DNA of 64,000 nt from Tessaracoccus antarcticus (GTDB taxonomy: Bacteria > Actinomycetota > Actinomycetes > Propionibacteriales > Propionibacteriaceae). Location: the NCBI RefSeq assembly GCF_003688855.1, contig NZ_REFW01000001.1:806001-870000 (forward strand), given 5' to 3'. The position numbers were made by a program, and so were the translations under genes. Below are positions 1,632-34,294 of this stretch, piece by piece (position 1 is the first letter of the stretch; every line of letters starts with the position of its first letter). A model generated the notes under the pieces. That model did not search any database and was not told the origin of the DNA. It saw only the letters and a list, made by a program, of their open reading frames with translations.

Positions 1632-3602
1632 TTATGTCGTCACTGCAGCACTGAACTGCGACTGGTAGAGGTCGTGGTAGGCGCCCCCGGCCGCCAACAG
1701 TTCGTCGTGCGTGCCCTGCTCCACGATGGCTCCCTGCTCCATGACGAGGATCAGGTCGGCGTCGCGGATGGTGGAGAGGCGGTGGGCGATGACGAACGAC
1801 GTCCTCCCGTGGCGCAGTGCCGACATGGCCTGCTGCACGAGCAGTTCGGTGCGGGTGTCCACCGAGCTGGTGGCCTCGTCGAGGATGAGCAGCGCGGGGT
1901 CCGCCAGGAACGCGCGAGCGATGGTGACAAGCTGCTTCTCGCCCGCCGAGATGTTGGAACCCTCCTCGTCGATGACGGTGTCGTACCCCTCGGGCAGGGA
2001 GTGGACGAAGCGGTCGACGAACGTGGCCGTGGCGGCCCTGATGATGTCCTCCTCGGACGCCCCGGGGCGGCCGTAGGCAATGTTGTCCCGGATGGTGCCG
2101 CCGAACAGCCACGTGTCCTGCAGGACCATGCCGATGTTGCGCCGCACGTCCGCGCGGGGCACCGTCGCAATGTCGACGCCGTCCATGGTGATGGCCCCGC
2201 CGTCGAGGTCGTAGAACCGCATGAGCAGGTTCACCAGCGTCGTCTTGCCTGCCCCTGTGGGACCAACGATGGCCACGGTCTGCCCGGGAAGGGCTTCCAG
2301 GTCCAGGTCGTTGATGAGCGGCTTGTCGGGAGAGTAGGAGAAGTCGACGTCGGAGAACGTGACGTGCCCCCTCACCTCAGGCAGCGAACCGCCCGGCTCC
2401 GGCGTCATCTCGTCGGCGTCCATCAACTCGAAGACACGCTCTGCCGATGCCACACCGGACTGCATCAGGTTGGCCATCGACGCCACCTGCGTCAACGGTT
2501 GGGTGAACTGCCGCGAGTACTGGATGAACGCCTGCACGTCGCCGATGGTCATGGTGCCGGAGGCCACGCGGAGCCCGCCGATGACGGCGATGACCACGTA
2601 GTTGAGGTTCCCGACCAGCATCATGATGGGCATCATGAGTCCGGAGATGAACTGCGAGCCGAACGCGGCCGTGTACAGCTCCTGGTTGCGCTTTTCGAAC
2701 TGGGCCGCCACCTCCTTCTGGCGTCCGAACACCTTGACCAATGAGTGGCCGGTGTAGGCCTCCTCGATGTGGGCGTTCAGGTCGCCCGTGGACTTCCAGT
2801 TTGCCTTGAAGAGCACCTGTGAGCGCTTGCCGATGATGGAGACCATCACCATGGCGACGGGGACGCTGACGAGCGCCACCAGGGCCAGGGTGGGGGAGAT
2901 CCAGAACATCATGGCCAACACGCCCACCACCATCAACAGGGAGTTCAGCAGTTGCGACAGCGTCTGCTGCAGCGTCTGCGACACGTTGTCGATGTCGTTG
3001 GTGACGCGGCTCAGGAGTTCACCGCGGGGCTGGTTGTCGAAGTAGGACAGCGGCAACCGGTCGATCTTGGCGGAGACCTTCTGGCGCATCGTGAGGATGC
3101 TCTGCTGCACGGCGTCGTTGAGGACGTAGGCCTGCACGTAGGACGCGACCCCGGAGATGAGGTACAGCACCAGGACGGTGAGCAGGATCATGCCGATGGC
3201 ATTGAAGTCGACGCCCTGGCCGGGCACGAAGTCCATGCTGCGCAGGAGGTCGGCCAAGTCGCCGTTCCCCTGACTCTGGACCGCCTCGATGACCTGCTCC
3301 CGCGTCATGTTCGGGGAGAACTGCTTGCCCAGGAACCCGGCCAGCAGCATGGTGGTCGCCTGGCCGAGGATCTTGGGTCCCACCACGGACAGGGTCACTC
3401 CCGCGACACCGAACATGATGGCGATGATGATGCGAACGCGTTGGGGTCGCAGTTCGTGGAGGAGCCGCTTCAGTGAGGTGCGGAAGTTGGCAGCCTTCTC
3501 ACCGGGGGCGACCATGGGGCCGTGGCCGGGGCCGCCGCTCCGCTGTGGGGCATCCTCGGGTCGTTTGTTGGCCTTGATGGGGGCCTGGTCCTTCTGGCTC
3601 AT
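1632..3602 (-). CDS. Heterodimeric ABC exporter, subunit with consensus catalytic Glu
   Basis: A 656-residue half-transporter: a charged 40-residue lead, six membrane helices (about 60-360) and a C-terminal ATPase. The ATPase has Walker A GPTGAGKTT, a deviant signature SAGEKQ in place of SGGQ, Walker B LLILDEATSS with the catalytic glutamate, and the H-loop histidine in IAHRLST. Its ATG overlaps the stop of the upstream partner gene (ATGA), so the two are translationally coupled. With the partner it fits the known asymmetric exporters of the BmrCD/TM287-288/MdlAB kind, with one working and one degenerate ATP site. The substrate is unknown; the adjacent TetR gene suggests drug or lipid export. 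Confidence 0.9.
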   Translation of the reverse strand: MSQKDQAPIKANKRPEDAPQRSGGPGHGPMVAPGEKAANFRTSLKRLLHELRPQRVRIIIAIMFGVAGVTLSVVGPKILGQATTMLLAGFLGKQFSPNMTREQVIEAVQSQGNGDLADLLRSMDFVPGQGVDFNAIGMILLTVLVLYLISGVASYVQAYVLNDAVQQSILTMRQKVSAKIDRLPLSYFDNQPRGELLSRVTNDIDNVSQTLQQTLSQLLNSLLMVVGVLAMMFWISPTLALVALVSVPVAMVMVSIIGKRSQVLFKANWKSTGDLNAHIEEAYTGHSLVKVFGRQKEVAAQFEKRNQELYTAAFGSQFISGLMMPIMMLVGNLNYVVIAVIGGLRVASGTMTIGDVQAFIQYSRQFTQPLTQVASMANLMQSGVASAERVFELMDADEMTPEPGGSLPEVRGHVTFSDVDFSYSPDKPLINDLDLEALPGQTVAIVGPTGAGKTTLVNLLMRFYDLDGGAITMDGVDIATVPRADVRRNIGMVLQDTWLFGGTIRDNIAYGRPGASEEDIIRAATATFVDRFVHSLPEGYDTVIDEEGSNISAGEKQLVTIARAFLADPALLILDEATSSVDTRTELLVQQAMSALRHGRTSFVIAHRLSTIRDADLILVMEQGAIVEQGTHDELLAAGGAYHDLYQSQFSAAVTT

Positions 3603-5344
3603 GCTGCTGCCTCCTCTGCGCTCAGCTGGGACTCGACGATTTCCTGGTAGGTCTCGCAGTTCTCAAGCAGTTCGTCATGGGTGCCCCGCCCCACGATCTC
3701 GCCATGCTCCAGCACGAGGATTTCGTCGGCGTTGCGGATGGTGGTGACGCGCTGGGCCACCACGAAGACCGCCTTGTCCGCGACGCGCGGGGCCAGTGCT
3801 GCGCGCAGACGGGCGTCCGTGGTCACGTCGAGGGCGGAGAAGGAGTCGTCGAAGATGAACACCTCCGCGTCCGTGCTCAACGCCCGGGCGATCGCCAGGC
3901 GTTGCCTCTGGCCGCCCGAGACGTTGGTGCCGCCCTGGGAGATGGACGATTCAAGGGCACCCTCGCGTTCCCGAACGAAGCCGTCGGCCTGCGCGATGCG
4001 CAGCGATTCCCACAGGTCCGCGTCGTCGGCATTCGGCTTGCCGTAGCGCAGGTTGCTGCCGACCGTGCCCGAGAAGAGGTACGGCTTCTGCGGGACGATG
4101 GCCACACGGCTCCACAGCACGTCCGGGTCCATGTCGCGCACGTCGACGCCGTCGAGCAGCACCCGGCCGCCCGTGACGTCGAAGAGGCGGGGCAGGAGGC
4201 TGACGAGCGTGGTCTTTCCGGAGCCGGTGGACCCGATCACGGCAGTGGTGCGGCCGGGGCGCAGTTCAAAGCTGACACCCCTGAGCACGGGCTCCTCGGC
4301 GCCGGGGTAGGAGAAGCTGACGTCGTCGAAGACGACGACACCCTCCGCGTTCTGCGGCTTCACCGGCTTGCGAGGGGGGGCCACGGAGGACTCGGTGTCC
4401 AGCACCTCAAGGATGCGTTCGGCGCAGACGGCCGCGCGGGGGGCCATCACCAGCAGCATCGTGGTCATCATGACGGAGATGAGGATCTGCATGAGGTAGG
4501 CGAGGAAGGCCGTCAACTGGCCGATCTGGATTTCACCCGCGTCGACGCGTTGCGCGCCGAACCACATGACGCCCACCGTCGAGACGTTCAGCACCAGTCC
4601 CACGAAGGGGAACAGCACGGCCATGAGCCGGCCGACGGTCGTGGCAGTGTCCACCAGTTCCGTGTTGGCGCCCCGGAAACGACGGGACTCCTGGTCCTCA
4701 CGGACGAAGGCCCGGACCACGCGGATGCCGGTGATCTGCTCGCGCAGCACGCGGTTGAGGTTGTCGATGCGCTTCTGCATGACGGCGTAGAGGGGACCCA
4801 TCCTGGAGATGAGCACCACGATGCCGGCGCCGAGCACGAAGACGGCCGCCAGGATGGTCCAGCTCAGGCCGGCGTCCTCCCGGAGCGCCATGATGACGCC
4901 ACCCACCATGGTGATGGGGGCGCCCACGAGCATGATGCAGGTCATCAGCACCAGCATCTGCACCTGCTGGACGTCGTTGGTGGTCCTGGTGATGAGGGAC
5001 GGGGCGCCGAAGTGGTTCATCTCGCGGCTGGAGAACGCCAGCGTGCGGTCGAAGAGTGCGGCGCGGACGTCGCGCCCGAACAGCATGGCGGCGCGGGCGC
5101 CGAAGTACACGGACCCCACCTGTCCAAGGCCCTGGACGAGGGCGAGCAGCAGCATGACGCCGCCCGTGCTCCAGATGTAGTCGGTATCACCCTTCACGAC
5201 GCCCTGGTCGATGATCCGGGCGTTCAGGGTGGGCAGGTACAGCGACATGATCGTCGCTACCACCTGGAGCGCCACCACGAGGACCAGCAGGCCCCAGTAC
5301 TGGGCGATGTAGCGGTTGATCAGCCGCGTCAACTTGCGTATCAC
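3599..5344 (-). CDS. Heterodimeric ABC exporter, subunit with degenerate Walker B
   Basis: The start is taken at GTG 5344, where GTGA overlaps the TetR stop and an AAGGAC sequence lies upstream; this gives 581 residues. Six membrane helices are followed by an ATPase with Walker A GSTGSGKTT, a normal signature SGGQRQ, and Walker B VFIFDDSFSALD, in which Asp replaces the catalytic Glu. That replacement is the hallmark of the non-hydrolysing site in heterodimeric exporters, and it pairs with the deviant SAGEKQ signature of the downstream subunit, which makes the two gene products a convincing pair. The longer reading frame to 5563 runs inside the TetR gene and is not believed. Confidence 0.88.
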   Translation of the reverse strand: MIRKLTRLINRYIAQYWGLLVLVVALQVVATIMSLYLPTLNARIIDQGVVKGDTDYIWSTGGVMLLLALVQGLGQVGSVYFGARAAMLFGRDVRAALFDRTLAFSSREMNHFGAPSLITRTTNDVQQVQMLVLMTCIMLVGAPITMVGGVIMALREDAGLSWTILAAVFVLGAGIVVLISRMGPLYAVMQKRIDNLNRVLREQITGIRVVRAFVREDQESRRFRGANTELVDTATTVGRLMAVLFPFVGLVLNVSTVGVMWFGAQRVDAGEIQIGQLTAFLAYLMQILISVMMTTMLLVMAPRAAVCAERILEVLDTESSVAPPRKPVKPQNAEGVVVFDDVSFSYPGAEEPVLRGVSFELRPGRTTAVIGSTGSGKTTLVSLLPRLFDVTGGRVLLDGVDVRDMDPDVLWSRVAIVPQKPYLFSGTVGSNLRYGKPNADDADLWESLRIAQADGFVREREGALESSISQGGTNVSGGQRQRLAIARALSTDAEVFIFDDSFSALDVTTDARLRAALAPRVADKAVFVVAQRVTTIRNADEILVLEHGEIVGRGTHDELLENCETYQEIVESQLSAEEAAA

Positions 5345-5922
5345 GGGAGGTCCTTCCGTCGTGCTCCGTCGAGGGCGAAACGTGTGATGTCTTCGGGGGT
5401 CAGCCCACCCGGCCTTGCCATGGCCATTCCCATGGCAAGCGCCTTGAGGAAGTGGGAGTAGTTCTCCGGGCTGATGGTGAGCTCGTCCGTGTGGGGGGAG
5501 ATGGTGGCGACCACCCAGTCGCGGAGGTCGGCGAAGCGCTCCTTGTGCGCATCGCGGACGCACGCCGCGTTGGGGGAGGGGGCGCTCTCGTGCTTGGGGG
5601 GCGGGAGCACCGAGTGGATGTGGGAGAAGTAGTCCACGATGCCGCGTACGCAGCCGAGCGTCTTGGACTCCAACGTGTCGCCGAGCTCGACGGCCTCAAG
5701 GCTGACCATCAGGCGTTCCCGGGAGAGGAACTCTGAATACGTGGCGCCCAGCAGGTCGGGCAGCGTGGGGAACACGCGGAAGATGGTGCCCTCCGCGACG
5801 CCTGCCGCCTCTGCCACCATGCGGGTGGTCAGCTCGGGTCCGTTCGCTTCCATCAGGTCGAGTGCGGCGTCGACGATGGCAGCTCGTCGCTGTTCAGGTG
5901 GCATGGGTGCGGCTCGGGTCAC
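5341..5922 (-). CDS. TetR-family repressor of the ABC exporter operon
   Basis: About 193 residues. An N-terminal TetR helix-turn-helix (RRAAIVDAALDLMEANG, then TTRMVAEAAGVAEGTIFRVFP) is followed by a helical ligand domain. The start is uncertain: GTG 5922 lies just where a transcript from the promoter at 5929-5957 should begin, so it may be leaderless; ATG 5904 (MPPEQRR) is the alternative. A GTG at 5946 falls inside the operator and is unlikely. First gene of an overlapping operon with the two exporter subunits, so it probably represses itself and them until a ligand binds. Confidence 0.85.
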   Translation of the reverse strand: MTRAAPMPPEQRRAAIVDAALDLMEANGPELTTRMVAEAAGVAEGTIFRVFPTLPDLLGATYSEFLSRERLMVSLEAVELGDTLESKTLGCVRGIVDYFSHIHSVLPPPKHESAPSPNAACVRDAHKERFADLRDWVVATISPHTDELTISPENYSHFLKALAMGMAMARPGGLTPEDITRFALDGARRKDLP

Positions 5923-19314: not shown

Positions 19315-20823
19315 TCAGCCCTGGGGCCGCAACAACGGGAAGAGGATGGTCTCGCGGATACCGACGCCGGTGAGCAGCATGACGAGGCGGTCCATGCCCA
19401 GCCCGAGTCCGCCCAGTGGGGGCACACCGTGCTCCAGCGCTTCCACGAAGTCCTGGTCGAACTGCATGGCCTCGTGGTCACCGGCGGCGGCCTTGACGGA
19501 CTGGGACATCAGGACGTCGCGCTGAATCACCGGGTCGACGAGCTCGGTGTAGCCCGTGCCCCGTTCCACCCCTCCAATGATCAGGTCCCAGGCCTCTACC
19601 TTGCCCTCGTCCGTGCGGTGACGGCGGGCCAGTGGCTGGGCGATGGCGGGGTAGTCGTAGACGAACGTCGGCTGGAGGAGCGTCGGCTCCACCAACTCGC
19701 CGAACAATTCCATGATCATCTTGTCGGCGGCCCACTTCGCGTCGTACTCCACCTCGCGGGCGTCGGCGATGCCGTGGAGCACCTCCACGGGCGTGTGGAC
19801 CGTCAATTCCTGTCCGACCTCGGCTGACAACGCGGGGAACACCGACAGCCATGGCCACTCGCCGTCCAGGTCGATGGTGCCCGCAGGGGTCTCGATCTGC
19901 CGCGAGCCCACGGCGTCGGCGGCGGCCACGACGAGGTCCTGCGTCAGCCGCGCGACGGTGCGCTGGTCGCCCCAGCTCTGGTAGGCCTCGAGCATGGTGA
20001 ACTCGGCGGAGTGTGTGGAGTCGATGCCCTCGTTGCGGAACACGCGCCCAATCTCGAACACCCGGTCGGCCCCACCGACCATGGTCCGCTTCAGGTGCAG
20101 CTCCAGGGCGATGCGCAACGTCATGTCCAAGTCGAAAGCGTTGAGGTGCGTCTGGAACGGGCGCGCCGCAGCCCCGCCGTGGATCAGTTGCAGGGTGGGT
20201 GTCTCCACCTCCAGGTAGCCCTGGTCGTAGAGGGTGTCCCGCACCGCCCGGGTGATGGCGGACCGGGTGCGCACCATGGTGCGGGCGTCGTCGCGGGCGA
20301 TGAGGTCCACGTAGCGGCGACGGACGCGGGACTCGTCGGACAGGTCCTTGTGCAGTGCGGGCAGGGGACGCAAGGCCTTGGAGGCCATGCGCCATTGCGC
20401 CGCCATGACCGACAGTTCGCCACGCTTCGAGCAGATGACGCGGCCACGGACCCAGACGTGGTCTCCGAGGTCCACGTCGGCCTTCCAACGCGCCAGGGCA
20501 TCCTCGCCCACCTCGGCCAGCGACAGCATGACCTGCAGGCGTTCGCCGTTGTCGTCGGGAGTGAAGCCGTCCTGCAGTGTGGCGAAGCACAGCTTTCCGG
20601 TGTTGCGGATGAACACGACACGGCCACCGATCGTGACCTCCTCGTCGGTTTCCTCGCCGGCCTCCAGTTGGCCCCACCCTGCACGGACCTCACGGAGCGC
20701 GTGGGAGCGGGTGAGGTCGGCGGGATACGCCTCCAGTCCTGAGTCCAGGATGCGTGCGCGCTTCTCCTTGCGGATGGCGGTCTGCTCGGAGTCGCTGATC
20801 GGGGATGCAGTCTGGTCAGTCAC
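19315..20823 (-). CDS. lysS: Lysyl-tRNA synthetase, class II
   Basis: About 502 residues from GTG 20823. An N-terminal OB-fold anticodon-binding domain (VTIGGRVVFIRNTGKLCFATLQDG) is followed by the class II catalytic core: motif 2 FEIGRVFRNEGIDSTHSAEFTMLEAY and motif 3 GLGLGMDRLVMLLTG. It charges tRNA-Lys with lysine. No Shine-Dalgarno is seen; a TAGTCT -10-like box ends 8 bp before the GTG, so the mRNA may be leaderless. A TTG at 20832 would add three residues. Confidence 0.95.
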   Translation of the reverse strand: MTDQTASPISDSEQTAIRKEKRARILDSGLEAYPADLTRSHALREVRAGWGQLEAGEETDEEVTIGGRVVFIRNTGKLCFATLQDGFTPDDNGERLQVMLSLAEVGEDALARWKADVDLGDHVWVRGRVICSKRGELSVMAAQWRMASKALRPLPALHKDLSDESRVRRRYVDLIARDDARTMVRTRSAITRAVRDTLYDQGYLEVETPTLQLIHGGAAARPFQTHLNAFDLDMTLRIALELHLKRTMVGGADRVFEIGRVFRNEGIDSTHSAEFTMLEAYQSWGDQRTVARLTQDLVVAAADAVGSRQIETPAGTIDLDGEWPWLSVFPALSAEVGQELTVHTPVEVLHGIADAREVEYDAKWAADKMIMELFGELVEPTLLQPTFVYDYPAIAQPLARRHRTDEGKVEAWDLIIGGVERGTGYTELVDPVIQRDVLMSQSVKAAAGDHEAMQFDQDFVEALEHGVPPLGGLGLGMDRLVMLLTGVGIRETILFPLLRPQG

Positions 20824-20844
20824 GACACGCAAGACTACCGTCCC

Positions 20845-22868: not shown

Positions 22869-23115
22869 GCCGGTCCTCCCCCGGACGCGGAGTCACAGTC
22901 ATCGACGAGTGGTGGCCGCAGCGTCCCTGCTGTATGAGTCTAATCCCGGCCGTGCCTCGTGGCCGTTGTGACGCAATGTCCGGCTTCCCGGCCACGGACT
23001 GCTGGACCACTTCCCCTCCTCTAGTGGTGGGGTTCACGTTTCTGGAGAGTCGAGGTCGGGTCTCCTGATGAGCGACCAGTGTCCGCACTCTGGGAGGATG
23101 CTTGCAGGGGGGACG
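22869..23115. other. Divergent intergenic region before the DUF6361-PLD-helicase operon
   Basis: About 250 bases that must hold the promoters of both the VanW gene and the three-gene operon. Base composition falls here (for example 23012-23050) relative to the flanking genes. No convincing -35/-10 pair or operator was found by eye, and no repeat marking an integration site. Confidence 0.4.
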
Positions 23116-24330
23116 ATGCCGTCGACTATTGCTTGGCTGGATACTTCGTCAGAGGAACAACTCCGGACGCGTGAGCTGATCGCGCTGTTCACGGAGAAAG
23201 ACACCTTGGACGAGCTCGGAATTGGCCAGATCCGTGATGTCTTCAGCAACGTCCTCTTCCCCGGCACTTCGGTCATCCAAACCCGTGCCCGCTATCTCCT
23301 TCTGGTGCCGTGGGCGTACCTCGACGCAGCACAGAAACGATCGAACGGAACCGTCCGGGAGAAGGCGCAGGCCAACCAGCGCCAGACCATCGAGGCACTC
23401 CTGCAACTTGGTCGGGAAGGTCACCCACAGGAAGGAATTGTGGGAGCCAGGGCCGGTGCTGGAGTGAAGACTCTTCCCTCGGACATCTACTGGAACGCAC
23501 TGCGGACCTATGGAATTCTTCAACGCGAACTCTCCGCTGACGACCTCGGGAGGCGTCCAAGCGCGGACACCGAGTCGGACGAATTGGCAGGACGCCCCGT
23601 GACTGAGTGGCATCCCGCCATCCGAGTACCGAAGGGGTTCCCGGCCCTCATTCCGGGTGGACTCGAACTCACGTACGAGGAAGCTGCCTTCCTCCGCGAA
23701 CGCATCCTTCAGGGCGTGCCGGGGTCCTTACTTGCCCACCTGATCGGATCGGACGAACCGCCGGATCCTGACAGCCGTCAGCCGTGGGATGACTCCGTGG
23801 CAGCGCGGGTCGACGGCGCTCTGGCCGAGGCCATGACCCATGCGAGGTTGTTCTCGCACTCAATCCACGGAGCCTCGCTGCTGTACGCGGTACTGGTGGC
23901 GGAGGCTTACCGCGACGCCGGTTACAACGCTGTCGGCGATCAACGCGAGATGACGCGAGATGCGCTGCGCCAGTGGTGGGAGGCGACGGAGCCGCTCACA
24001 GGCCGGTTGTCTGCCTGGGATCTGGATGAGTTCTGGGCCTTCGTGATTGAGCGGAACCCGCGGATCTCCATACTCACCCGACGCTTTGTCACAGAATGGC
24101 TAGCGGCAGTCAAGGACGGCACGGCGCAGTTTGCGGCCGACGATGATCGGCTCCGTCGGCTCATCCGTGATCGGGAACGCGAGATGAAACGCTCCCAGGC
24201 GCGGCTGTCCAACCGCAAGCTTCTAGGCCTCTGGGGCGGCTTCACGGGTGGCAGTGGGCTCAGCTACCGGTGGAGCACAGTAAAGACGATCGTCAGCGAC
24301 ATCCATCGCGGCCTTGAACGAAAGGGTTAG
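23116..24330 (+). CDS. DUF6361-family protein, first gene of candidate defence operon
   Basis: The start is ATG 23116 behind AGGGGGGACG; 404 residues. It has the look of the uncharacterised DUF6361 family: a conserved opening (STIAWLDTSSEEQLRTRELIALFTEKDTLDELGIGQIRDVFSNVLFPGTSVIQTRARYLL is spread over residues 3-62), a central region with GFPALIPGGLELTYEEAAFLRERI, and a basic C-terminus RLSNRKLLGLWGG. No membrane helix, no signal and no enzyme motif that I recognise. It lies 3 bp before the PLD gene, in one operon with it and the helicase. A role as sensor or adaptor is only a guess. Confidence 0.75.
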   Translation: MPSTIAWLDTSSEEQLRTRELIALFTEKDTLDELGIGQIRDVFSNVLFPGTSVIQTRARYLLLVPWAYLDAAQKRSNGTVREKAQANQRQTIEALLQLGREGHPQEGIVGARAGAGVKTLPSDIYWNALRTYGILQRELSADDLGRRPSADTESDELAGRPVTEWHPAIRVPKGFPALIPGGLELTYEEAAFLRERILQGVPGSLLAHLIGSDEPPDPDSRQPWDDSVAARVDGALAEAMTHARLFSHSIHGASLLYAVLVAEAYRDAGYNAVGDQREMTRDALRQWWEATEPLTGRLSAWDLDEFWAFVIERNPRISILTRRFVTEWLAAVKDGTAQFAADDDRLRRLIRDREREMKRSQARLSNRKLLGLWGGFTGGSGLSYRWSTVKTIVSDIHRGLERKG

Positions 24331-24333
24331 GCG

Positions 24334-26190
24334 ATGCTCGCGCCAGACAGCCGGGTGGTGCTACTGGAACAGCTTCGACCCCCGGTCGGATACCAGCTGG
24401 AGGCAGCGGTCGCCACCACGTTCACCCTGCAACTCGGTGCTGCCCTGGTTCCGCCCTTGGCCTTCGCGTCGCACGAGATCAGGGGCGGGACCGATCCGCT
24501 CAGCGTGCTGGAGTCGGTCCGCTCGGCCTCGGACCGGATTGACATCTATTGCCAGGCCGGACAAATCGCAGTGCCCAAGCGTGCCTCGGACCTCATGGCG
24601 TTCCTGGAGCCGATGGTCCATCCTGTTCGGCCGCCGAAGGCGGGGTTCCTGTTCCACCCCAAAATCTGGTTCGTCCACTACACGGCCAAGGCCCAACCCG
24701 ACCGCTACCGGCTGCTCTGCCTCACCCGGAACCTTGTCGACAGTCAGGCATGGGATGCGGCTGTTGTGCTGGACGGAGTCGACGGCGTCGATGCAACGGA
24801 GGCGAATCTTCCCCTTGCAGCTTTCCTGAGGAACCTACCCGAGTTGGCCGTGAATCGTTCTGAGCGGCGAGCGAGGCGTGCGCGGGACCTGGCTGAACGG
24901 GCCACCCGGGTTCGGTGGAGCAATCCGGACGGTGTGCAGGGCCTCAGGTTCCACGCCATGGGGGTACCGGGGGTCGCCGACACTACGGACTTCACCGGCC
25001 TGCGACACCTCGTCATCTCGCCGTTCTGCGACGCAGCGGGGGTGGCGCATGTGACGGGCGGAGGGCGTGACGCCATCGTCGTCTCCAGGGCGGAAGCAAT
25101 GGATTCGCTGGACCCCGGATGGTTGTCGCGGCTGCGTCTGGGAGGGAAGGACGGGTCGGTGTTTGTGCTCGACCCCTTGGCGGTCCCGCCTGGTGAACAG
25201 GCGGCTGCCCTTGGGGGGGCCGCGGACCCTGCGGCAGGTACGTCAGGCGAGGCCGCTCGAGAGCTTGGCGAGCTCACCGGTCTCCATGCGAAGGTGATCG
25301 TGATCGAGAAGAATTGGAAGGCGCACCTTTTCATCGGGTCCGCGAACGCGACCTCAGCTGCGTTCAACGGCAACGTCGAGTTCATGGTCGAGATGTGGGG
25401 CCGGGCGCTGGACCTTGGTTACCGCACGATGATGGATCCGGGACTGAAGAAGGGACAACGCAACTTCCGCGACCTGCTCCAGCCCTACGTCACCGGCGAG
25501 ACACGAGTGTCGGAGGAAGACGTGGAACTCAGGCGCCTGCGGAACCTCCTCAGGCGGCTGGCAGCCGTGCCCTACCGGATGACTGTGCAGGATGGTCGCT
25601 CGCACTACGATCTCCAGCTCACCAGCGAGGGCGCCGTCGTGCTGCCCGAAGAACACGCGCTGGCATTCGGGCTGCTGACGCGGCCGGGAGTCGCGCACAC
25701 ACACGCGGCGGAGACGCGTGTCGACGCGGTCTTCGACGAGGTCCCCCTTGCCGACATCACCCCGTTCGTTGTGCTTCGGCTCACGGGGCCGGATGGAACC
25801 GTCGCGGACACGGTCGTCCACGCTCCGCTGGTCAACGATCCGGAGGACCGACTCGACGCAGTCCTCGCCCGCCAGGTGGACACGCGCGAGAAGTTCCTGA
25901 GGTTCCTGGCGCTGGTCCTGGGCCTCGCCGACTCCTCGGCCCTCGCTGCGATGGCGGGAGACATTGCCACCTCAGGCGCGGGTTGGGAGGCCGGCGGCGG
26001 TGGACACGCGGGAATCTTCGAAATCGTCGTCGAAGCGATGGCTGACCGGCCCGAGTCGATCCGCGAGCTGGACAGGCTCGTGAAACGGCTCGGGCAGACG
26101 GCGGAAGGTCGTGAACTGTTTCCCGAGGGTTTCGAAGAGTTGTGGACCAACGTGGAGCTCGCTCTGGGACAGGTGCGCAGGCAGCCATGA
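24334..26190 (+). CDS. Phospholipase D-like protein with two HKD-type motifs
   Basis: 618 residues. The second catalytic half is canonical: GLHAKVIVI (His317, Lys319), then FIGSANATSAAF and a Glu in NVEFMVE. The first half is shortened and altered: FHPKIWFVHY (His107, Lys109) followed by LLCLTRNLVDSQAWD in place of GSxN. This arrangement is seen in PLD-superfamily nucleases linked to helicases (such as DrmC of DISARM and BfiI-type nucleases), not in lipases, and there is no signal peptide. Residues 400-618 form an unassigned C-terminal domain. It probably cuts DNA with or for the helicase, whose ATG overlaps its stop. Confidence 0.8.
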   Translation: MLAPDSRVVLLEQLRPPVGYQLEAAVATTFTLQLGAALVPPLAFASHEIRGGTDPLSVLESVRSASDRIDIYCQAGQIAVPKRASDLMAFLEPMVHPVRPPKAGFLFHPKIWFVHYTAKAQPDRYRLLCLTRNLVDSQAWDAAVVLDGVDGVDATEANLPLAAFLRNLPELAVNRSERRARRARDLAERATRVRWSNPDGVQGLRFHAMGVPGVADTTDFTGLRHLVISPFCDAAGVAHVTGGGRDAIVVSRAEAMDSLDPGWLSRLRLGGKDGSVFVLDPLAVPPGEQAAALGGAADPAAGTSGEAARELGELTGLHAKVIVIEKNWKAHLFIGSANATSAAFNGNVEFMVEMWGRALDLGYRTMMDPGLKKGQRNFRDLLQPYVTGETRVSEEDVELRRLRNLLRRLAAVPYRMTVQDGRSHYDLQLTSEGAVVLPEEHALAFGLLTRPGVAHTHAAETRVDAVFDEVPLADITPFVVLRLTGPDGTVADTVVHAPLVNDPEDRLDAVLARQVDTREKFLRFLALVLGLADSSALAAMAGDIATSGAGWEAGGGGHAGIFEIVVEAMADRPESIRELDRLVKRLGQTAEGRELFPEGFEELWTNVELALGQVRRQP

Positions 26191-29100
26191 CAACCCGGAA
26201 GCCGTTCAGTGCCGGCAAAGTGATGGACCAACTGACAGATTTCCAGCGCAACACAGCCGAGTACGTCGTGGACCGGTTCTACGGCGATAATCCCACGGAC
26301 CGGTTCCTTGTCGCCGACGAGACCGGTTTGGGCAAGACAATCGTTGCCCGCGGAGTTATCGCCCGCACCATTGAGAAGCTGCAAAACAACGACGCCGTTG
26401 ACCGCATCGACATCGTGTACGTCTGCTCGAACCAGGACCTGGCGCACCAGAATCTCCGGAAGCTCAACGTGACTGGCGACGATCACCACGGCATTGCCAG
26501 CCGCCTGACGCTGCTGTCGAAGCACGCGCACAGTTTCGCGCCGAGCGTCGGTGGCGGGTCGATCAAGCCAGTCAACTTGGTGTCCTTCACTCCGGGCACG
26601 TCGTTCTCCACCGGCTGGCAATCGGGAACGGCCGACGAGCGAGCCCTTCTGTTCAAGATCCTGGATGATGGCCTCACGCTTGACGGGTCGCGGGCGGAGA
26701 ACTGCTACGAGGTGCTTCGGGGGTCCTTGCAATCAAAGGAGGGGTTGCGCAGGCCTGTGAGGGAGCTGAACAAGAGCCTTCATCAGGGGCCTGACAGGGA
26801 GCTCACAGTGCGATTCCTCGCGGCCATCGCTGTGGAGTCACTTTCGCTGCCTGGTGCAGAGTCGGAACAGACGATACGAGACGAGCTCGACGACCTCCTC
26901 GACCACTTCACTCCCAGCCCCGAGCACCGACACCGTGCTTGGGGCCTGGTCGGTCGCCTCCGCGCCGTGCTGGCACGGGAGAGCATTCAACTCCTCACCC
27001 CCGACCTGGTGATTCTCGATGAGTTCCAGCGCTTCCGTGAGCTGCTGGATGACAAGACAGAAGCCGGTGGCCTGGCAGGACACCTGTTCGGGTACCGGGA
27101 CGAGGCCACCGGGCATCGCGCGAAGTCGCTGTTGCTGTCCGCAACACCATTCAAGGCCTTCACCTTCGCGGAGGAGGCCCTGCTCGGCGACGACCACCAC
27201 GAGGATTTCCTCCAACTTGTCAGATTTCTCAATAACGGTGACGCCAACGGACAGGTGGCGCGGATCCGCGATTCGCTTCGCGAGTACCGCGATGAGATTG
27301 TGACCGGGCGCATGACTGCCGGCGCTGTAGAGCGGGCCAGGAATGAGTTGCTTCGACTCATGGTGCGGACAGAGCGGCCGCGTGACGTGGTCAAGACGAT
27401 GACAGACGAACGGGTCACGCTCCTCGGAGCTCCGAGCGTGGAGGACCTCCTCGGATTCATCGCGATGAAGGACTTGGCGCGGGAGGTGGGGGCGCCCTTC
27501 AGGCTCGAATACTGGAAGTCGGCGCCGTACTTCGTCAACTTCATGGATGGCTACAAGTTGGGTGGGCTGGTACGTGAAGCACTGAGTGATCCTCAGCGCC
27601 AAGACCGTATCCGGTTGCTGCTTGCGAGTACCCAACAGCTGAATGCAGCGGCGCTGGATGGCTCGGACCAGGTTGACCTCGGGAATCCGCGGATGCGGGC
27701 GCTGGCGGCCGCAACGGTCAACCGGGGGTGGTGGAGGCTGTTGTGGGTGCCACCATCGCTCCCGTACTTTGAGGCGTCGGGCCCGTATGCGGACCCGGAC
27801 GCTCAGGAGATGTCCAAGCTGTTGGTGTTCTCGTCCTGGGCGGCGACTCCGGCCGCGGTCGCGTCGCTGCTCAGCCATCAGGCTGACCATTTGGCGGCGG
27901 GTTCTGAAGGACGCAGTCTCGCCGAGGACCAGAGGGCCAGGCTCAGGAATCGTCTTGCGTACCGGTTGGAGAGCGACGAGGACGAGCGGCCGTCGTCGAT
28001 GTCGACCCTGGCGCTGTTCTGGCCCATGCCCGGCCTGGCCAGGCTTGCGGATCCGCTCCAGGCAGCACGGCACTCCGACGGGCTCCCTGTCCTGCCGGAC
28101 GTGTGGCGCGAGCAAGTTGTGGCTCGTCTCGAAACGGACCACCGCACGGATGTGACGAGCAGTGGGACTGTGGCGTCGCACTGGTACGAAGCCATGCGGC
28201 GTCAGGATTCGCTACCGGAGCACTTCGATCTGCGGAAGGTTCTGGCTGCGTTCGACCTCCAGGATGATCAGGGTGATGATCCGCAATCGACGACGGAGGC
28301 GCCGCTGAGGAGGTCACGGCAGCAGCGTCACGTCGAACTCGCCCTTCAAGTTCGAGGCAAGAGGCAGGACCGTCGGTTGTCACCGGAAGGGCTGACGGCC
28401 CTCGCAGAGGTCGCCATTCATAGTCCGGCGAACATTGCTTACCGTGCGCTGTCCCGGATCGCCGATGGTGGCTCCCGCGTGAGCGACGGCGGTCGGTGGG
28501 TGGCCGCCGTCCGACTCGCGGGTGCCCTGCGGAGCCTCTTCTCCAGGCCCGAGGCCATCCTGCTTCTCGACCAGCTCTTGCCGGGCAGCGAACCCTACTG
28601 GCGCAGGATCCTCACATATTGCGCATGGGGCAACCTGCAGGCCACGCTCGACGAGTACGCGCACCACCTGCACGTCAGCCTCGGTTCACCCGAGGTCGAC
28701 GACGAACTGCTGCTCGAGATCGCCCGCATGGCGTCGGTGGCGCTGGAGATGCGCTCGTCCACCGTCGAGATCTTCGACCCGGCCGCGGCGGAGGCGGGCT
28801 TCAAGAGGCGCCTCGCCACACGCTTCGCGCTGCGCTTCGGAGGCCGGCGCGAAAAGGAGGAAAGTGCCCGCCAGCCAGTGGTGAGGCAAGCGTTCAACAG
28901 CCCGTTCCAGCCGTTCGTGTTAGCCACGACGTCTATAGGCCAGGAGGGGGTGGACTTCCACTGGTGGAGCAGAAGCGTCTTCCACTGGAATGCGCCGCCG
29001 AACCCCATCGATTTCGAGCAGCGCGAGGGGCGTGTCGACCGTTATGACGGGCTGGCCGTGCGTCGGAACCTCGCAGCTCGCCACGGCGACGAAGCACGGA

Positions 29101-29429
29101 AGAGCGTCGGACCCAACCCGTGGGCTGCGCTCTACGCACTGGCAGACAGGGATGACTCCGGTCTCGGGTCCTTCGCCCCCCATTGGGTCTACCCCGGCGA
29201 TCATCGGATCGAGCGACATGTGGCCCCGTACGCGCTGAGCACGGACGAACGACAGTTGGAGAACGTCAAGCGTGATGTGGCGTTGTACCGGCTGACCTTC
29301 GGGCAACCGAGGCAGGAGGACATGCTTGCGCTCATGAAGTCGCAGTTCCCGGATGGCGACGCCGAGGCGGTGGAACTGCATCGCATAGACCTCGCCGCTC
29401 CTGCTTGGCGCAGCGAAGGGGAAAGCTGA
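26187..29429 (+). CDS. SF2/SNF2-like helicase, about 1080 residues, DEFQ box
   Basis: The start is ATG 26187, overlapping the PLD stop (ATGA). Helicase motifs in order: I ADETGLGKT (Lys50), Ia VYVCSNQDLAHQN, II LDEFQRF (278-281, Gln where most SNF2 proteins have His), III LLSATPFK (318), V ATTSIGQEGVDFHWW, and VI FEQREGRVDRY (945-953) with both arginine fingers. About 550 residues lie between motifs III and V, far more than in a minimal helicase, and probably include the nuclease- or substrate-contact domains. It is likely to be the DNA-translocating motor of the system. It ends 4 bp from the convergent uracil-DNA glycosylase gene. Confidence 0.85.
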   Translation: MTTRKPFSAGKVMDQLTDFQRNTAEYVVDRFYGDNPTDRFLVADETGLGKTIVARGVIARTIEKLQNNDAVDRIDIVYVCSNQDLAHQNLRKLNVTGDDHHGIASRLTLLSKHAHSFAPSVGGGSIKPVNLVSFTPGTSFSTGWQSGTADERALLFKILDDGLTLDGSRAENCYEVLRGSLQSKEGLRRPVRELNKSLHQGPDRELTVRFLAAIAVESLSLPGAESEQTIRDELDDLLDHFTPSPEHRHRAWGLVGRLRAVLARESIQLLTPDLVILDEFQRFRELLDDKTEAGGLAGHLFGYRDEATGHRAKSLLLSATPFKAFTFAEEALLGDDHHEDFLQLVRFLNNGDANGQVARIRDSLREYRDEIVTGRMTAGAVERARNELLRLMVRTERPRDVVKTMTDERVTLLGAPSVEDLLGFIAMKDLAREVGAPFRLEYWKSAPYFVNFMDGYKLGGLVREALSDPQRQDRIRLLLASTQQLNAAALDGSDQVDLGNPRMRALAAATVNRGWWRLLWVPPSLPYFEASGPYADPDAQEMSKLLVFSSWAATPAAVASLLSHQADHLAAGSEGRSLAEDQRARLRNRLAYRLESDEDERPSSMSTLALFWPMPGLARLADPLQAARHSDGLPVLPDVWREQVVARLETDHRTDVTSSGTVASHWYEAMRRQDSLPEHFDLRKVLAAFDLQDDQGDDPQSTTEAPLRRSRQQRHVELALQVRGKRQDRRLSPEGLTALAEVAIHSPANIAYRALSRIADGGSRVSDGGRWVAAVRLAGALRSLFSRPEAILLLDQLLPGSEPYWRRILTYCAWGNLQATLDEYAHHLHVSLGSPEVDDELLLEIARMASVALEMRSSTVEIFDPAAAEAGFKRRLATRFALRFGGRREKEESARQPVVRQAFNSPFQPFVLATTSIGQEGVDFHWWSRSVFHWNAPPNPIDFEQREGRVDRYDGLAVRRNLAARHGDEARKSVGPNPWAALYALADRDDSGLGSFAPHWVYPGDHRIERHVAPYALSTDERQLENVKRDVALYRLTFGQPRQEDMLALMKSQFPDGDAEAVELHRIDLAAPAWRSEGES

Positions 29430-29433
29430 ACCG

Positions 29434-30267
29434 TCACAGCCGTGACAGGACCTCGTCGAACATGGCTTCTGTCAGCTTGCCGGTGAACGTGTTCTGCTGG
29501 CTGACGTGGTAGCTCCCCACCAAGCGGATCGAGCGACCGTCGGGCGTGGTCAGCGCCGCCTCGGCGCCATGGGTGAACTTGGGTTTGGGGGACGGAACAC
29601 CCCAGCCCCGACGTCGGGCGGCCCTGATGACCGCGTCCCAGCCGATCAGTCCCAGCGCCAGGATCGAGCGCAGCCGGGGCTCGGTGAGTTCGAGTTCCCG
29701 GTCGAGCCACGGTGCACACGTCGACTTCTCGAGGGTGGTGGGCTTGTTGCCGGGTGGTGCGCACCTGACGGGAGCAGTGATCCGGACGCCGGCGAGTTCG
29801 AGGCCGTCGCCAGCAGCGAACGCCGTGGGCTGCGATGCATAGCCTGCGCGGAACAGGCCGGCGAACAGCCAGTCGCCCGAGCGGTCACCGGTGAACATGC
29901 GGCCGGTGCGGTTGGCGCCGTTCGCCGCGGGAGCCAGGCCGACGATCAACACCTCGGCGGCCGGGTCCCCGAATGAGGCCACGGGGCGACCCCAATACGG
30001 CTGGTCGGCAAACGAGGCCCTACGTCCCGTGGTGGCCACGGATTCCCTCCACTCGACCAGTCGCGGACAGGCCCGACAGACAGTGATGCAGGCGTTCAGG
30101 TCATCAAGGGTGCGGGGGGAGGCTGCGAGCAAGGTGACGTCGGCGGCGGAATGGGCCACCGGTGTATCGGTGGTGGCCGGGTCGCCCGGCCAGCCGGTCT
30201 CTGGCTCCACGGGGGAGCCGAAGAGTCTTCCGGTCAGCGGGTGGGCGTCGCGTCGTGCCTCAGACAT
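29434..30267 (-). CDS. Uracil-DNA glycosylase, family 5 (UdgB-like)
   Basis: 277 residues. Motif 1 is VGLAPAANGANRTGRMFTGDRSGDW, the family 5 form, in which the active-site water is held without the Asp of other families. The second motif is VGSYHVSQQNTFTGKLT. The Cys pattern CITVCRACPRLVEW..C..PVRCAPPGNKPT fits the four cysteines of the [4Fe-4S] cluster. It removes uracil and some other deaminated bases from DNA. This is a common actinobacterial repair gene, so its position next to the helicase operon is probably not meaningful. Confidence 0.92.
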   Translation of the reverse strand: MSEARRDAHPLTGRLFGSPVEPETGWPGDPATTDTPVAHSAADVTLLAASPRTLDDLNACITVCRACPRLVEWRESVATTGRRASFADQPYWGRPVASFGDPAAEVLIVGLAPAANGANRTGRMFTGDRSGDWLFAGLFRAGYASQPTAFAAGDGLELAGVRITAPVRCAPPGNKPTTLEKSTCAPWLDRELELTEPRLRSILALGLIGWDAVIRAARRRGWGVPSPKPKFTHGAEAALTTPDGRSIRLVGSYHVSQQNTFTGKLTEAMFDEVLSRL

Positions 30268-30522: not shown

Positions 30523-30993
30523 GTGACGGACCGCGACATTCGGGTGAGTGACGTTGAACGCGACCAGGCAGTCTCGTTGCTCGCCGAGCACTTCGCGGAA
30601 GGGCGACTCACCCCCTCCGAGTTTGACCAGAGGACCACGGAGGCGCTGTCCGCTCGTACGCGGGGAGAGTTGGATCACGTCATGGTCGACCTTCCCGCCG
30701 TGCCGGCGGGCGTTCCCGCCCCACCAGCGATGGACGCGACACCGGGCAGCGTCGATCGTCAAGGTTCGAGGATGGCCCATTGGCGCCGATCATCGCTGGC
30801 GCCTTGGGCGATCTTCGCTGTCTTCTTCGTCGTTGTGTGGGTCGCCACGGGCGGCGGTTATTTTTGGCCCGTGTGGCCGATCATGGGCTGGGGTCTGGGG
30901 GTCGCGATCAACGGGGTGAAGGCCCTCACCGAAGTCGGGTCCCCTCCGACGGAGCACCCCCGGCAGCTCCCCGGGCCACCTCCGTCGCGGTAG
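30523..30993 (+). CDS. DUF1707 SHOCT-like domain protein with membrane hairpin
   Basis: 156 residues from GTG 30523, after GAGGAGGA. Residues 1-55 are a DUF1707 domain (RVSDVERDQAVSLLAEHFAEGRLTPSEFDQRTTEALSARTRGEL), common in Actinobacteria, followed by a Pro-rich linker and two membrane helices (WAIFAVFFVVVWVATGG and WPVWPIMGWGLGVAINGV), then a Pro-rich tail. The function is unknown; the N-terminal domain usually binds partner proteins at the membrane face. Confidence 0.88.
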   Translation: MTDRDIRVSDVERDQAVSLLAEHFAEGRLTPSEFDQRTTEALSARTRGELDHVMVDLPAVPAGVPAPPAMDATPGSVDRQGSRMAHWRRSSLAPWAIFAVFFVVVWVATGGGYFWPVWPIMGWGLGVAINGVKALTEVGSPPTEHPRQLPGPPPSR

Positions 30994-31185
30994 GCGGCGA
31001 CCAGATGCACGCAAGGGGCTCGGCATTGGCGATCTGGGTCGGTGCTGCGGGAAGGGTGGTTGAGGGGGCTGATCGCGTGGGCGACGTGCTCGCGCACGCT
31101 GGGTGAGGGATCGGGCGCTGGGAGACGGAAGCAGGAATTGATCCTCTGTTCTATTTCTGTCAGTGGTGGCTGGGAGAATTTACTC

Positions 31186-32559
31186 ATGGGTGACACCACG
31201 GATTCGGGCTCGGAAGGGCTGGAGAATGTCCTGGATGTCGTCGGCTTGCTGGCCGCAGGAGCGCGTGGGAATGCCGCTGGGCTGTTGGACCTGATTGCCC
31301 GGATTGACGGCATCTGTGACCGGCTCGCGGCCGTCCGGATGGGGCTGTTGCATGGTGCGGATCTGGTGCGTGAGCCGGGTTTGTCGGTTGCTGAGCGGTT
31401 GCATGCCACCAATCGGGTTTCGCGCAGGACGGCCCGCTGTGATGCGCGGCTGGCCAGGGATTTGGCGGACCGGTTCCCGGTGGTGGCTGAGGCGTGGCTT
31501 GAGGGGAGGGTGTCGGCGGAGCAGGCGCGCGGGATTGTCGCTGGCCTGAAGCGTCTGCCGTTGTCGTTGTCGCCTACGCAGTTGGAGAGGTGCCAGGCCG
31601 ATGTTGTTGGTTTTGCGGATCGGTTCGATCCTGATGAGCTCCGCACGGTGGCGGAGCGGATGGTCGAGGTGATTGATCCGGAGCGTGCTGAGGCGTTGGA
31701 GGCGGATCGGGTGGAGCGGGACGCACGGGTCGCGTTCATGCGCCGATCCATGGTGGTGGTGCCGGATCATCACGGCTCCATGATCGTGCGCGGGCAGCTT
31801 CCGCTTGCTGATGGGCAGCTGTTCCTGGCGCAGTTGCAGGCGCTGATGCCCTCTGCCGTTTCTTATGGACTGGCGGGTGAGGTGCCGGATCGTGCGGCGC
31901 GGCGTGCGGATGCGCTGGTGCGGTGGTGTGCGATGCAGGCTGGCTCGGGGAGGCTGCCGGCGGTGGGTGGGGATCGTCCGCAGGTGGTGCTCACCCTCAG
32001 CCTGCGGACCCTGACCGAGGGGCTCGCTGCGGCTGCTGTCCTGGGCAGTGGGGAGTTGCTTCCGGCGGGTGAGGCCCGGCGGTTGGCGTGTGATGCGCAG
32101 CTGGTCCCGGCGGTGTTGGGTGGGGCCTCGGAGGTGCTGGATGTTGGCCGGGCCCGCCGTTTCTTCACCGGGGGGATCAGGGCTGGTTTGGTGCTGCGGG
32201 ATCGGGGATGTGCGTTTCCGGGGTGCGATGCGCCGCCGGGGGCGTGTGAGGCGCACCACAATCGGCCGTGGTGGGCCGGTGGGGCCACGTGCCTGTCGAA
32301 TGGGGTGCTGCTGTGTCCGTATCACCACCGCCTGGTGGAGCCGGATCCCGGTGTGTCGGAGCGGGTGCAGTGGCAGATCCTCATGGATCCGGACACGGGC
32401 CTGCCCTGGTTCACGCCGCCGCGCCAGGTCGACCCGGAGCGCAGGCCACGGTTGCATCACCGGTTTGTGCTGGGGGGGACGAGCCCGCCGACACCGACCC
32501 GGGTCAGGGAGTGCGCTACACCGGCTGATCTGCAGCCGTCACCAAGCTGGCACGGCTGA
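31186..32559 (+). CDS. DUF222 domain protein with C-terminal HNH endonuclease motif
   Basis: The start is ATG 31186 with GGGAG upstream; 457 residues. A helical DUF222/13E12-type region fills residues 1-330. The C-terminal HNH reads CAFPGCDAPPGACEAHHNRPW...LSNGVLLCPYHHRLVE, with four metal-ligand Cys and the catalytic His pair. Such genes occur in many copies in actinobacterial genomes and are thought to be mobile or repeat-associated (REP13E12 of Mycobacterium). Codon use here is richer in G/T-ending codons (GGT, GAT, TTG) than in the neighbours, and the 45 bases before it are AT-rich, which suggests a separate origin. Confidence 0.88.
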   Translation: MGDTTDSGSEGLENVLDVVGLLAAGARGNAAGLLDLIARIDGICDRLAAVRMGLLHGADLVREPGLSVAERLHATNRVSRRTARCDARLARDLADRFPVVAEAWLEGRVSAEQARGIVAGLKRLPLSLSPTQLERCQADVVGFADRFDPDELRTVAERMVEVIDPERAEALEADRVERDARVAFMRRSMVVVPDHHGSMIVRGQLPLADGQLFLAQLQALMPSAVSYGLAGEVPDRAARRADALVRWCAMQAGSGRLPAVGGDRPQVVLTLSLRTLTEGLAAAAVLGSGELLPAGEARRLACDAQLVPAVLGGASEVLDVGRARRFFTGGIRAGLVLRDRGCAFPGCDAPPGACEAHHNRPWWAGGATCLSNGVLLCPYHHRLVEPDPGVSERVQWQILMDPDTGLPWFTPPRQVDPERRPRLHHRFVLGGTSPPTPTRVRECATPADLQPSPSWHG

Positions 32560-32626: not shown

Positions 32627-34294
32627 CTAGTGGCGGCCGCGCAGTTCCTTGACCACCTCGTCGCCCGCGTGGCCGATGGCATTGAGGTCGCCCACCACGA
32701 TGAGGCGGTCGGTGGCGCGGGACAGTCCCACGTAGATTCGCTCGCGGAAGCGTTCCCGGGTGCCGTCCTCGTTGACGCACAGCACCACCGCGCGGCGCTC
32801 CAGGCCCTTGAACCCCAGGACGTGGCCGTAGAAGACCAGCTCGTCATCCCAGTACGTGTCCCAGTAGCCGTCCTGGCCCTCCAGGTCCTGCCGTGCCACC
32901 TGTTCGGGGTGGCGGCGGCCTGTTGTGAGGAGCGCTATGTGTTCGGGCAGCCAGCCCTCGTCCAGCAGTGCCTCCACCTGATCGTCGGCGACGTCGACGG
33001 CCTCCTCCGGGGCTGCCGGCACGTGGAGCACCTCCGGTCCGTCGCCGCCCTCAAGGCGCATGCGCAGCGGGGCGAGGGGGCGAAACACCTCGGCTATCTG
33101 CCTGGTGTTGCGAAGGTTGTGGTCGAGGACGAGCGGTACCAGCGGCACGGAGGGCCGCCCGAAGCGGTGGAAGAGGCGCTGGTTCTCGTCGGAGTAGAGG
33201 AACAGGCCACCCTCCTGCTCGTCCCGCAGTGCGGCGATGAGCGGGAGCCACCACGATTCGGCGAAGTCCTGGGCCTCGTCGACGACGAAGGAATCGAAGC
33301 GCTGGCCGGGCGGCAACCCCGCGGCCTTCTCGGCCATCTGCCGTGGCAGCCTGACCTCCCAGAAATCGTGATCGTCACGTGAGCCGGACGCGATGCCCCA
33401 CTGGTTGGCGAGGGCCTCGAAGGTGCCGACGTAGGCGGGGCGCTGCTTGCGGTTCCATGTGGCGACCTCCCGCCTGAAGTAGTTCGCCAACCCCATGGAG
33501 TAGCACAGTAGGGCCACCCGCTCGGGCTTTCGATCGCCCCGTCCTGAGGTCAGTTGCTTGGCCTGGGTGAGCGCCAGGACCGTCTTCCCGCTGCCGGCAC
33601 CCCCGCGGATCTCCACCCTGCGCAGCAGGCGGGTTACTTCCAGGATCAGCCCCTGCTCCTGTGTGAGCCTGTCGGCGCGGGATTGGCGTTCGTCGGAATC
33701 GTCGACGACGCTCGGGGCGGCCCGGATCCCGCGGCCCGACATGATGTCGACGAAGACCTCGCAGTCCTCGACGGTTGGCGGTCGCCGATGGGTCTCGAAC
33801 CCCACTGGGACGTCGGCCAACCGCGCGGCCAGCTCGTGGAGGTCGTTCTTGTCGTGCAGCATCCACCGGGGGCAGTCGGGCAGGTCGGAAGTTGTCCCGA
33901 GGTGACTGAACGGTGTGACGACGGCGTGGGTGAAGCGGATGCGGCCGCGGGAACTGTCGGCCCATCGATGGTCGGACTCAATGAAGGTGCGCAGGGCGTA
34001 ACGGGCGTCGCGGGCCTGGGCGACAGGGTCGACGAGCATCCGGTGCCCGTCCCGCGGCATCGTCCACTTTCCATCCTCCAGGCCGATGCCGGTGCCCTTC
34101 ACCTCCACGACCACAACAGCCACGCCGGGCATCACCACGATGAGGTCGGCCTCATGGTCCTTCCTGTCGTCCGTCAGGCGGACGTTGGCCATGAGCGTGT
34201 CCTGCGGCCGCAGGGACTCACGCAGCATCGACCAGACGGCGCGCTCGGACTCCGTGGTGAAGCGTGGGTCAGCGGGGATGAGCTGGGGAGGCAT
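32627..34294 (-). CDS. NERD nuclease-SF1 helicase fusion
   Basis: 555 residues. The N-terminal nuclease-related domain (about 12-130) has TESERAVW, then D...HEADLIVVM and VVVVEVKGTG, which give the E-D-E-K set of a PD-(D/E)XK-like fold. It is followed by a UvrD-like helicase: Walker A RGGAGSGKT (about 230), DEAQDF (about 340), DHNLRNTRQI and the end motif YVGLSRATDRLIVVGD. Probably processes DNA ends. Similar fusions are found both in repair and in mobile or defence islands. It is convergent with the HNH gene and separated from it by 67 bp. Confidence 0.88.
   Translation of the reverse strand: MPPQLIPADPRFTTESERAVWSMLRESLRPQDTLMANVRLTDDRKDHEADLIVVMPGVAVVVVEVKGTGIGLEDGKWTMPRDGHRMLVDPVAQARDARYALRTFIESDHRWADSSRGRIRFTHAVVTPFSHLGTTSDLPDCPRWMLHDKNDLHELAARLADVPVGFETHRRPPTVEDCEVFVDIMSGRGIRAAPSVVDDSDERQSRADRLTQEQGLILEVTRLLRRVEIRGGAGSGKTVLALTQAKQLTSGRGDRKPERVALLCYSMGLANYFRREVATWNRKQRPAYVGTFEALANQWGIASGSRDDHDFWEVRLPRQMAEKAAGLPPGQRFDSFVVDEAQDFAESWWLPLIAALRDEQEGGLFLYSDENQRLFHRFGRPSVPLVPLVLDHNLRNTRQIAEVFRPLAPLRMRLEGGDGPEVLHVPAAPEEAVDVADDQVEALLDEGWLPEHIALLTTGRRHPEQVARQDLEGQDGYWDTYWDDELVFYGHVLGFKGLERRAVVLCVNEDGTRERFRERIYVGLSRATDRLIVVGDLNAIGHAGDEVVKELRGRH

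Follow-up and report, generated by a model that had tools for sequence, protein, structure and literature searches.

Azaca, an anti-phage system, is credited by later papers to Millman et al. 2022, and ZacA and ZacB are parts of it, which fits the names used in PADLOC. One paper lists ZacC of Azaca among the defence systems with an SF1 or SF2 helicase (PMC12278908), and another tabulates a PLD-like domain in Azaca with credit to Millman et al. 2022 (PMC10952713). According to three further papers, Azaca is among the systems of unknown mechanism that are enriched in Actinobacteria (PMC10482375), was found in two archaea among 382 with complete genomes, with Millman et al. cited for the system (PMC13321033), and has its mechanism entered as unknown (PMC12926258). 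A literature text search on the names ZacABC and DUF6361 returned no paper; Azaca was found under its system name.

Two other systems that combine a nuclease and a helicase are pertinent. SauUSI is a single protein that joins a PLD nuclease to an SF2 motor and shreds the DNA along which it translocates; two protomers supply the HxK motifs of its active site, and a domain reads methylated targets (PMC7913695). The same paper identifies 2c1l as BfiI and cites 7clg (PMC7913695). HamAB of Hachiman is described as a sensor helicase that restrains and then releases a nuclease.

The window analysed here is a stretch of 64,000 nucleotides from Tessaracoccus antarcticus, and it contains the following operon:

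23116-24330, plus strand: zacA, a DUF6361 protein of 404 aa
24334-26190, plus strand: zacB, a two-HKD predicted nuclease of the PLD family, 618 aa
26187-29429, plus strand: zacC, an SF2/SNF2-like helicase of 1080 aa

The coordinates of the open reading frames bore out the layout given in a preliminary description of this DNA (three genes on the same strand, with a 3-bp gap between zacA and zacB and a 4-bp overlap between zacB and zacC), and Pfam and motifs agreed with the protein types given there (DUF6361, a PLD-type protein with two HKD motifs, and an SF2 helicase of 1080 residues). An alternative in-frame ATG upstream, at position 23068, is a possible start of zacA. A promoter and terminator scan detected no promoter-like site, and terminators were at the level of shuffled sequence (4 versus a mean of 3.8). 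The third-position GC of the three genes (0.71, 0.79, and 0.78) was lower than that of eight other window genes measured (0.82-0.93), which fits acquisition; this is a modest sign, because two genes just downstream of the trio are equally low (0.78 for 30523-30993 and 0.76 for 31042-32559).

The assignment of the operon rests on the protein models ZacA, ZacB, and ZacC of PADLOC-DB 2.0 (2023), which matched all three proteins nearly end to end at 4e-123 or better. The features of an Azaca locus were present, namely full-length ZacA, ZacB, and ZacC, adjacency on one strand, and the HKD and helicase motifs. Judged from these profile matches, the operon is almost certainly a chromosomal copy of the named anti-phage system Azaca (zacA, zacB, zacC), and this copy would presumably protect its own host against phages. 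The trio is not a chance assembly, because the profile matches are full length and distant homologues occur in the same order.

Conserved positions were sought in 18, 18, and 17 rows for ZacA, ZacB, and ZacC, respectively; these rows include locus L023, in which ZacA was misread as 975 aa and ZacC is incomplete, and leave out L025. ZacA matched Pfam DUF6361 (PF19888, 2.7e-47) and the PADLOC ZacA model (4.1e-123, residues 1-401 on positions 1-395 of 396). An alignment of ZacA that took in all of the 18 loci except L023 and L037 showed that PG49-50, T56, R57, Y60, P65, G110, Y125, W126, and Y257 are invariant in 16 of 16 sequences, and no catalytic signature was recognised in ZacA; a second alignment covered 15 of the 18 loci (L023, L037, and L026 left out). 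The search of PDB sequences with the ZacA profile gave seven matches, all with an E value of 0.19 or worse and four of them to designed ABLE-type proteins, which were treated as chance. The AlphaFold model of ZacA, built from an alignment of two sequences, had a mean pLDDT of 34.4, too low to support a fold comparison. Scans of viral contigs with the ZacA alignments found no relatives.

ZacB matched the PADLOC ZacB model at 1.9e-163 (residues 1-613 on positions 1-583 of 586), while the Pfam match to PLDc_2 was sub-threshold (4.3e-5, 23.8 bits against a cut-off of 27) and spanned the second HKD only. The motifs HPK (108-110), N133, HAK (318-320), GSAN (335-338), and E349 were located, and all of them, the fourth as GSxN, were kept in 18 of 18 rows. 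The first HKD is without a canonical GSxN and was missed by Pfam. With two HKD half-sites, a single chain could by itself make up a composite active site. The ZacB profile gave weak local matches in the PDB to 7clg (1.3e-4), which we take to be the SauUSI structure, to 2c1l (0.0036), and to NucT (6ehi, 0.006), all of them around the second HKD.

ZacC scored 1037.5 bits with the PADLOC ZacC model (residues 8-1071 on positions 5-1016 of 1019). The Pfam match to DEAD reached 27.5 bits (cut-off 26), and those to ResIII and Helicase_C were just below their cut-offs. The motifs GLGK (47-50, Walker A), DEFQ (278-281), SAT (318-320), and QREGR (945-949) were identified; of the 17 rows, 16 kept GLGK and DEFQ, which only the frame-broken L023 lacked, all 17 kept SAT, and 16 kept QREGR, before which L026 ends. 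With the helicase motif numbering that we assume (I, II, IV, V), about 230 residues separate motifs I and II and about 365 residues separate motifs IV and V, and from these spacings both RecA-like domains of ZacC seem to carry large insertions. A phmmer search of the PDB with ZacC gave no match at 0.01, and weaker matches of ZacC in PADLOC and NCBIfam were to PDC-M27C, DpdE, and DrmD.

Comparison of the extracted loci showed that the gene order A-B-C on one strand was present in 15 of 15 complete unbroken trios, in most of which the genes overlap or nearly touch. The zac genes of L023 (genome G005) and L025 (genome G004) are broken across frames, and L026 and L036, both on contigs of about 5 kb, run to the contig ends. 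The hosts of the trio belong to the phylum of the window, Oceanobacillus, Bacteroidota, Alpha- and Gammaproteobacteria, and one haloarchaeon. The pairwise distances of ZacA, ZacB, and ZacC were correlated over the 15 loci (Mantel r of 0.927, 0.914, and 0.939, each reached by 0 of 5000 permutations), and therefore the three proteins appear to travel as a unit.

ZacC matches were obtained in 17 of 39 genomes of the genus, 12 of which were short helicase-motif matches with an E value of 2e-5 or worse; real zacC sequence was present in five of the 39 (G000, G004, G005, G013, and G029), with frame-broken zac genes in G004 and G005 and a locus reaching the contig end in G029. In G013, the trio adjoins ISL3-, Mutator- and IS110-type transposases and is on a different contig from the uracil-DNA-glycosylase-family gene that follows the trio of the window (29434-30267, convergent). 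For the VanW gene that lies upstream of the window's trio, the other 38 genomes offer nothing closer than a match of 39% identity over about 115 residues. Because of the separate contigs in G013 and the VanW gene without a close homologue elsewhere, the place of the trio is not fixed. The preliminary description had held that occurrence in this genus only, at a fixed place, would speak against a defence system; what was found is distant hosts, a patchy presence in the genus and varying placement. One congener carries a broken C-terminal zacC piece (L024:8904-10103) that shares 83% identity with the window's zacC across 290 residues, and it also has a second, more distant Azaca locus.

The wider phylum sample of 396 genomes contained ZacB in five and DUF6361 in eight, two of the latter as N-terminal pieces only. 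Among 72,556 plasmid records there were 53 ZacC and 34 ZacB matches; 19 of the 53 ZacC matches were from Cronobacter and at least 20 from rhizobia and relatives, and others were from the haloarchaeon Halomarina and the Bacteroidota member Haliscomenobacter. A scan of genome contigs with ZacB, a lower bound since it used short exact patterns, gave one locus, in Oceanobacillus. The 50,697 phage records gave one ZacA match, on an unannotated, unverified gut contig with a full trio (L046, MT835621). At L054:8345-8722 and L055:8541-8837, the ZacA match was limited to about the first 75-130 residues and zacB and zacC matches were absent from the 18 kb read around it; these pieces are either remnants or a reused N-terminal domain.

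The proteins directly beside the trio had no PADLOC match among the ten other window proteins scanned. The nearest match in this set, about 3.2 kb downstream, was a 555-aa protein with NERD and UvrD-like regions (32627-34294, minus strand; PADLOC RTasNERD-Hel 8e-28, NERD and UvrD family 8.5e-17); its match to RTasNERD-Hel is not, by itself, evidence of a system. Elsewhere in the window, two adjacent proteins of about 655 aa (1632-5563, minus strand) each matched the PADLOC mad3 family (about 2e-25). A class II aminoacyl-tRNA synthetase of the D/K/N type (19315-20832, minus strand) has transaldolase and VanW genes as its neighbours, and a gene for a sugar-type solute-binding protein is close by.

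A type I restriction-modification (R-M) gene cluster adjoins or encloses Azaca in three of 19 loci. On a Haliscomenobacter plasmid (L041:5248-18872), zacABC is located between hsdM-hsdS and hsdR of such a cluster; in L046, hsdM, hsdS, and hsdR are followed by zacA, which starts 11 bp past hsdR; and in L034, whose host is of the window's class, the trio comes just after hsdS and hsdR and is followed by an SMC-like ATPase gene. A tblastn search that took the Hsd proteins of L041, L046, and L034 as queries, and that would miss distant types, found no Hsd gene in the other 16 loci, the whole window included and L026 and L036 covered by only their contigs of about 5 kb. A single hsdS-like match (32.3 bits) occurs in the window's genome, on a different contig. 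L046 is labelled Bacteriophage sp. but may instead be an integrative element, because the few proteins scanned include no phage structural gene; it also encodes an ADP-ribosylglycohydrolase, a Y-family polymerase, and a lysozyme/CHAP protein. In two rhizobial plasmids (L042:2733-8800 and L043:2659-8711), a PD-(D/E)XK nuclease and a UvrD helicase (AddAB-like) are encoded directly upstream of Azaca. Such a pair is annotated in L042, L043, and L044, and comparison of the L042 pair with 18 loci gave 65% and 68% identity in L043, only a remote UvrD match in L044, and nothing in the remaining 15; as a general neighbour of Azaca, the pair was rejected, being clear by sequence comparison only in L042 and L043. 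The recurrence of the trio in distant genomes beside defence genes, which the preliminary description had put forward as support, was thus observed, with the same order across phyla and several copies near restriction or defence-type genes.

The preliminary description had also presented the trio as an undescribed system and knew of no published one with exactly these parts. That novelty claim fails because the named system Azaca has the same three families; PADLOC-DB has full-length models for exactly these three proteins, Azaca is in print, and an already named system with these families was the very finding that the description had set beforehand against itself. A new system resembling Azaca only superficially would account for the modest identity (20-56%) between the window proteins and their counterparts in the 14 other complete loci and for the lack of a system name for the trio from Pfam or NCBIfam, but the near full-length model matches and the identical order and motifs have already refuted this reading, and we give it next to no credence. 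The observation was correct, and the operon is one more unremarkable copy of a system already known. What the description had said of a self-contained operon of three genes, with a nuclease and a motor among the products, is supported: its defence family turns up in distant genomes, where restriction or other defence-type genes flank several of the copies, and it is distinct from DISARM. The role of sensor or adaptor that the description gave to DUF6361 is a proposal. A DISARM variant without the methylase, DrmA, and DrmB is similarly hard to credit. DISARM shares with the trio a PLD protein and an SNF2-like helicase, and weak local PADLOC matches joined ZacB to DrmC (2.4e-5) and ZacC to DrmD (1.3e-9) and DrmA (3.8e-6, over a 44-residue helicase segment). 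However, the NCBIfam scores were far under the curated cut-offs (25.6 versus 133 bits for DrmC and 42.6 versus 610 bits for DrmD), no Drm match was obtained in the ten other window proteins scanned, and no DISARM product name occurred in eight annotated loci (names only). Apart from the 44-residue ZacC segment there was no DrmA in the trio and neighbours scanned, DrmB had no match in the trio and the ten other proteins, and no methylase was found among the neighbours scanned, in agreement with the preliminary description, which had noted the absence of DISARM parts. Helicase and nuclease pairs occur in repair too, and a uracil-DNA-glycosylase-family gene follows the trio; yet the trio is patchy in the genus (5 of 39), found on plasmids and near restriction genes in some loci, and no zac gene was present in the 16-19 kb read around the glycosylase gene in five other genomes of the genus, which makes a role in DNA repair or housekeeping instead of defence highly improbable.

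Taken as a whole, the data are very probably best explained by an Azaca copy whose three products most likely form one motor-nuclease complex. A motor-nuclease mechanism with roles split among the three proteins is evenly balanced in our judgement; complex formation, DNA as the target and the division of labour are what we infer. ZacA, ZacB, and ZacC, from coupled genes, would most likely assemble into one complex, in which ZacC would be an ATP-driven double-stranded-DNA motor engaging incoming DNA, ZacB a PLD-type nuclease built from two HKD half-sites and cutting when the motor moves or stalls, and ZacA the part that either picks out the target or links the motor with the nuclease. By analogy, Azaca may be a split SauUSI-like machine with ZacC as motor, ZacB as nuclease, and ZacA for recognition or coupling. 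The main rival to this SauUSI-like mechanism is abortive infection, in which ZacC would sense phage DNA intermediates and free a non-specific ZacB that destroys the host chromosome as well, as in Hachiman. The helicase-plus-nuclease layout resembles that system and the trio is without a modification gene to mark self DNA, but the weak PDB matches of ZacB are to SauUSI, BfiI, and NucT and not to HamA, and abortive action is a real though lesser possibility. A role of Azaca as an add-on to type I R-M in some hosts is unlikely: restriction would first cut or mark unmodified DNA, and the ZacABC motor-nuclease would then load on those ends or stalled complexes and shred the DNA. The window copy is without an R-M neighbour, and so it would have to act alone or in trans.

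The present work adds to the Azaca loci a further copy whose motifs are conserved, and an argument for novelty from the absence of a named system fails against the current defence library. The question of the Azaca mechanism is general and not particular to this window, and the mapped conserved residues are targets for mutation: H108, K110, H318, and K320 of ZacB, K50 and E279 of ZacC, and PG49-50, TR56-57, and YW125-126 of ZacA.

Comparison with known systems showed several partial likenesses. Apart from its own model, the PADLOC model that ZacC matched best was the candidate PDC-M27C (1e-18), but it scored 65.1 bits versus 1037.5 for the ZacC model, and its best stretch was residues 893-956 only. 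ZacC shares helicase segments with DpdE of the Dpd system (4.9e-14), whereas the DpdE score was 51.3 bits against a cut-off of 500 and no other Dpd part was found among the proteins scanned. Hachiman (HamAB) has a similar layout of sensor helicase and effector nuclease; it has two proteins, however, while ZacB has PLD motifs. HamA belongs to another nuclease family. SauUSI resembles the trio in coupling a PLD nuclease to an SF2 ATPase, and the second-HKD region of ZacB aligns with 7clg, whereas in Azaca the proteins are separate, both HKD half-sites belong to the same chain, and DUF6361 is a further part; the trio does not have the SauUSI-like single chain of nuclease, motor and modified-base reader, the genes being separate and no such reader occurring among the Pfam matches. 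Azaca itself is alike in all three families, in order, in strand and in motifs, and no difference of the window operon from it was found apart from ordinary sequence divergence.
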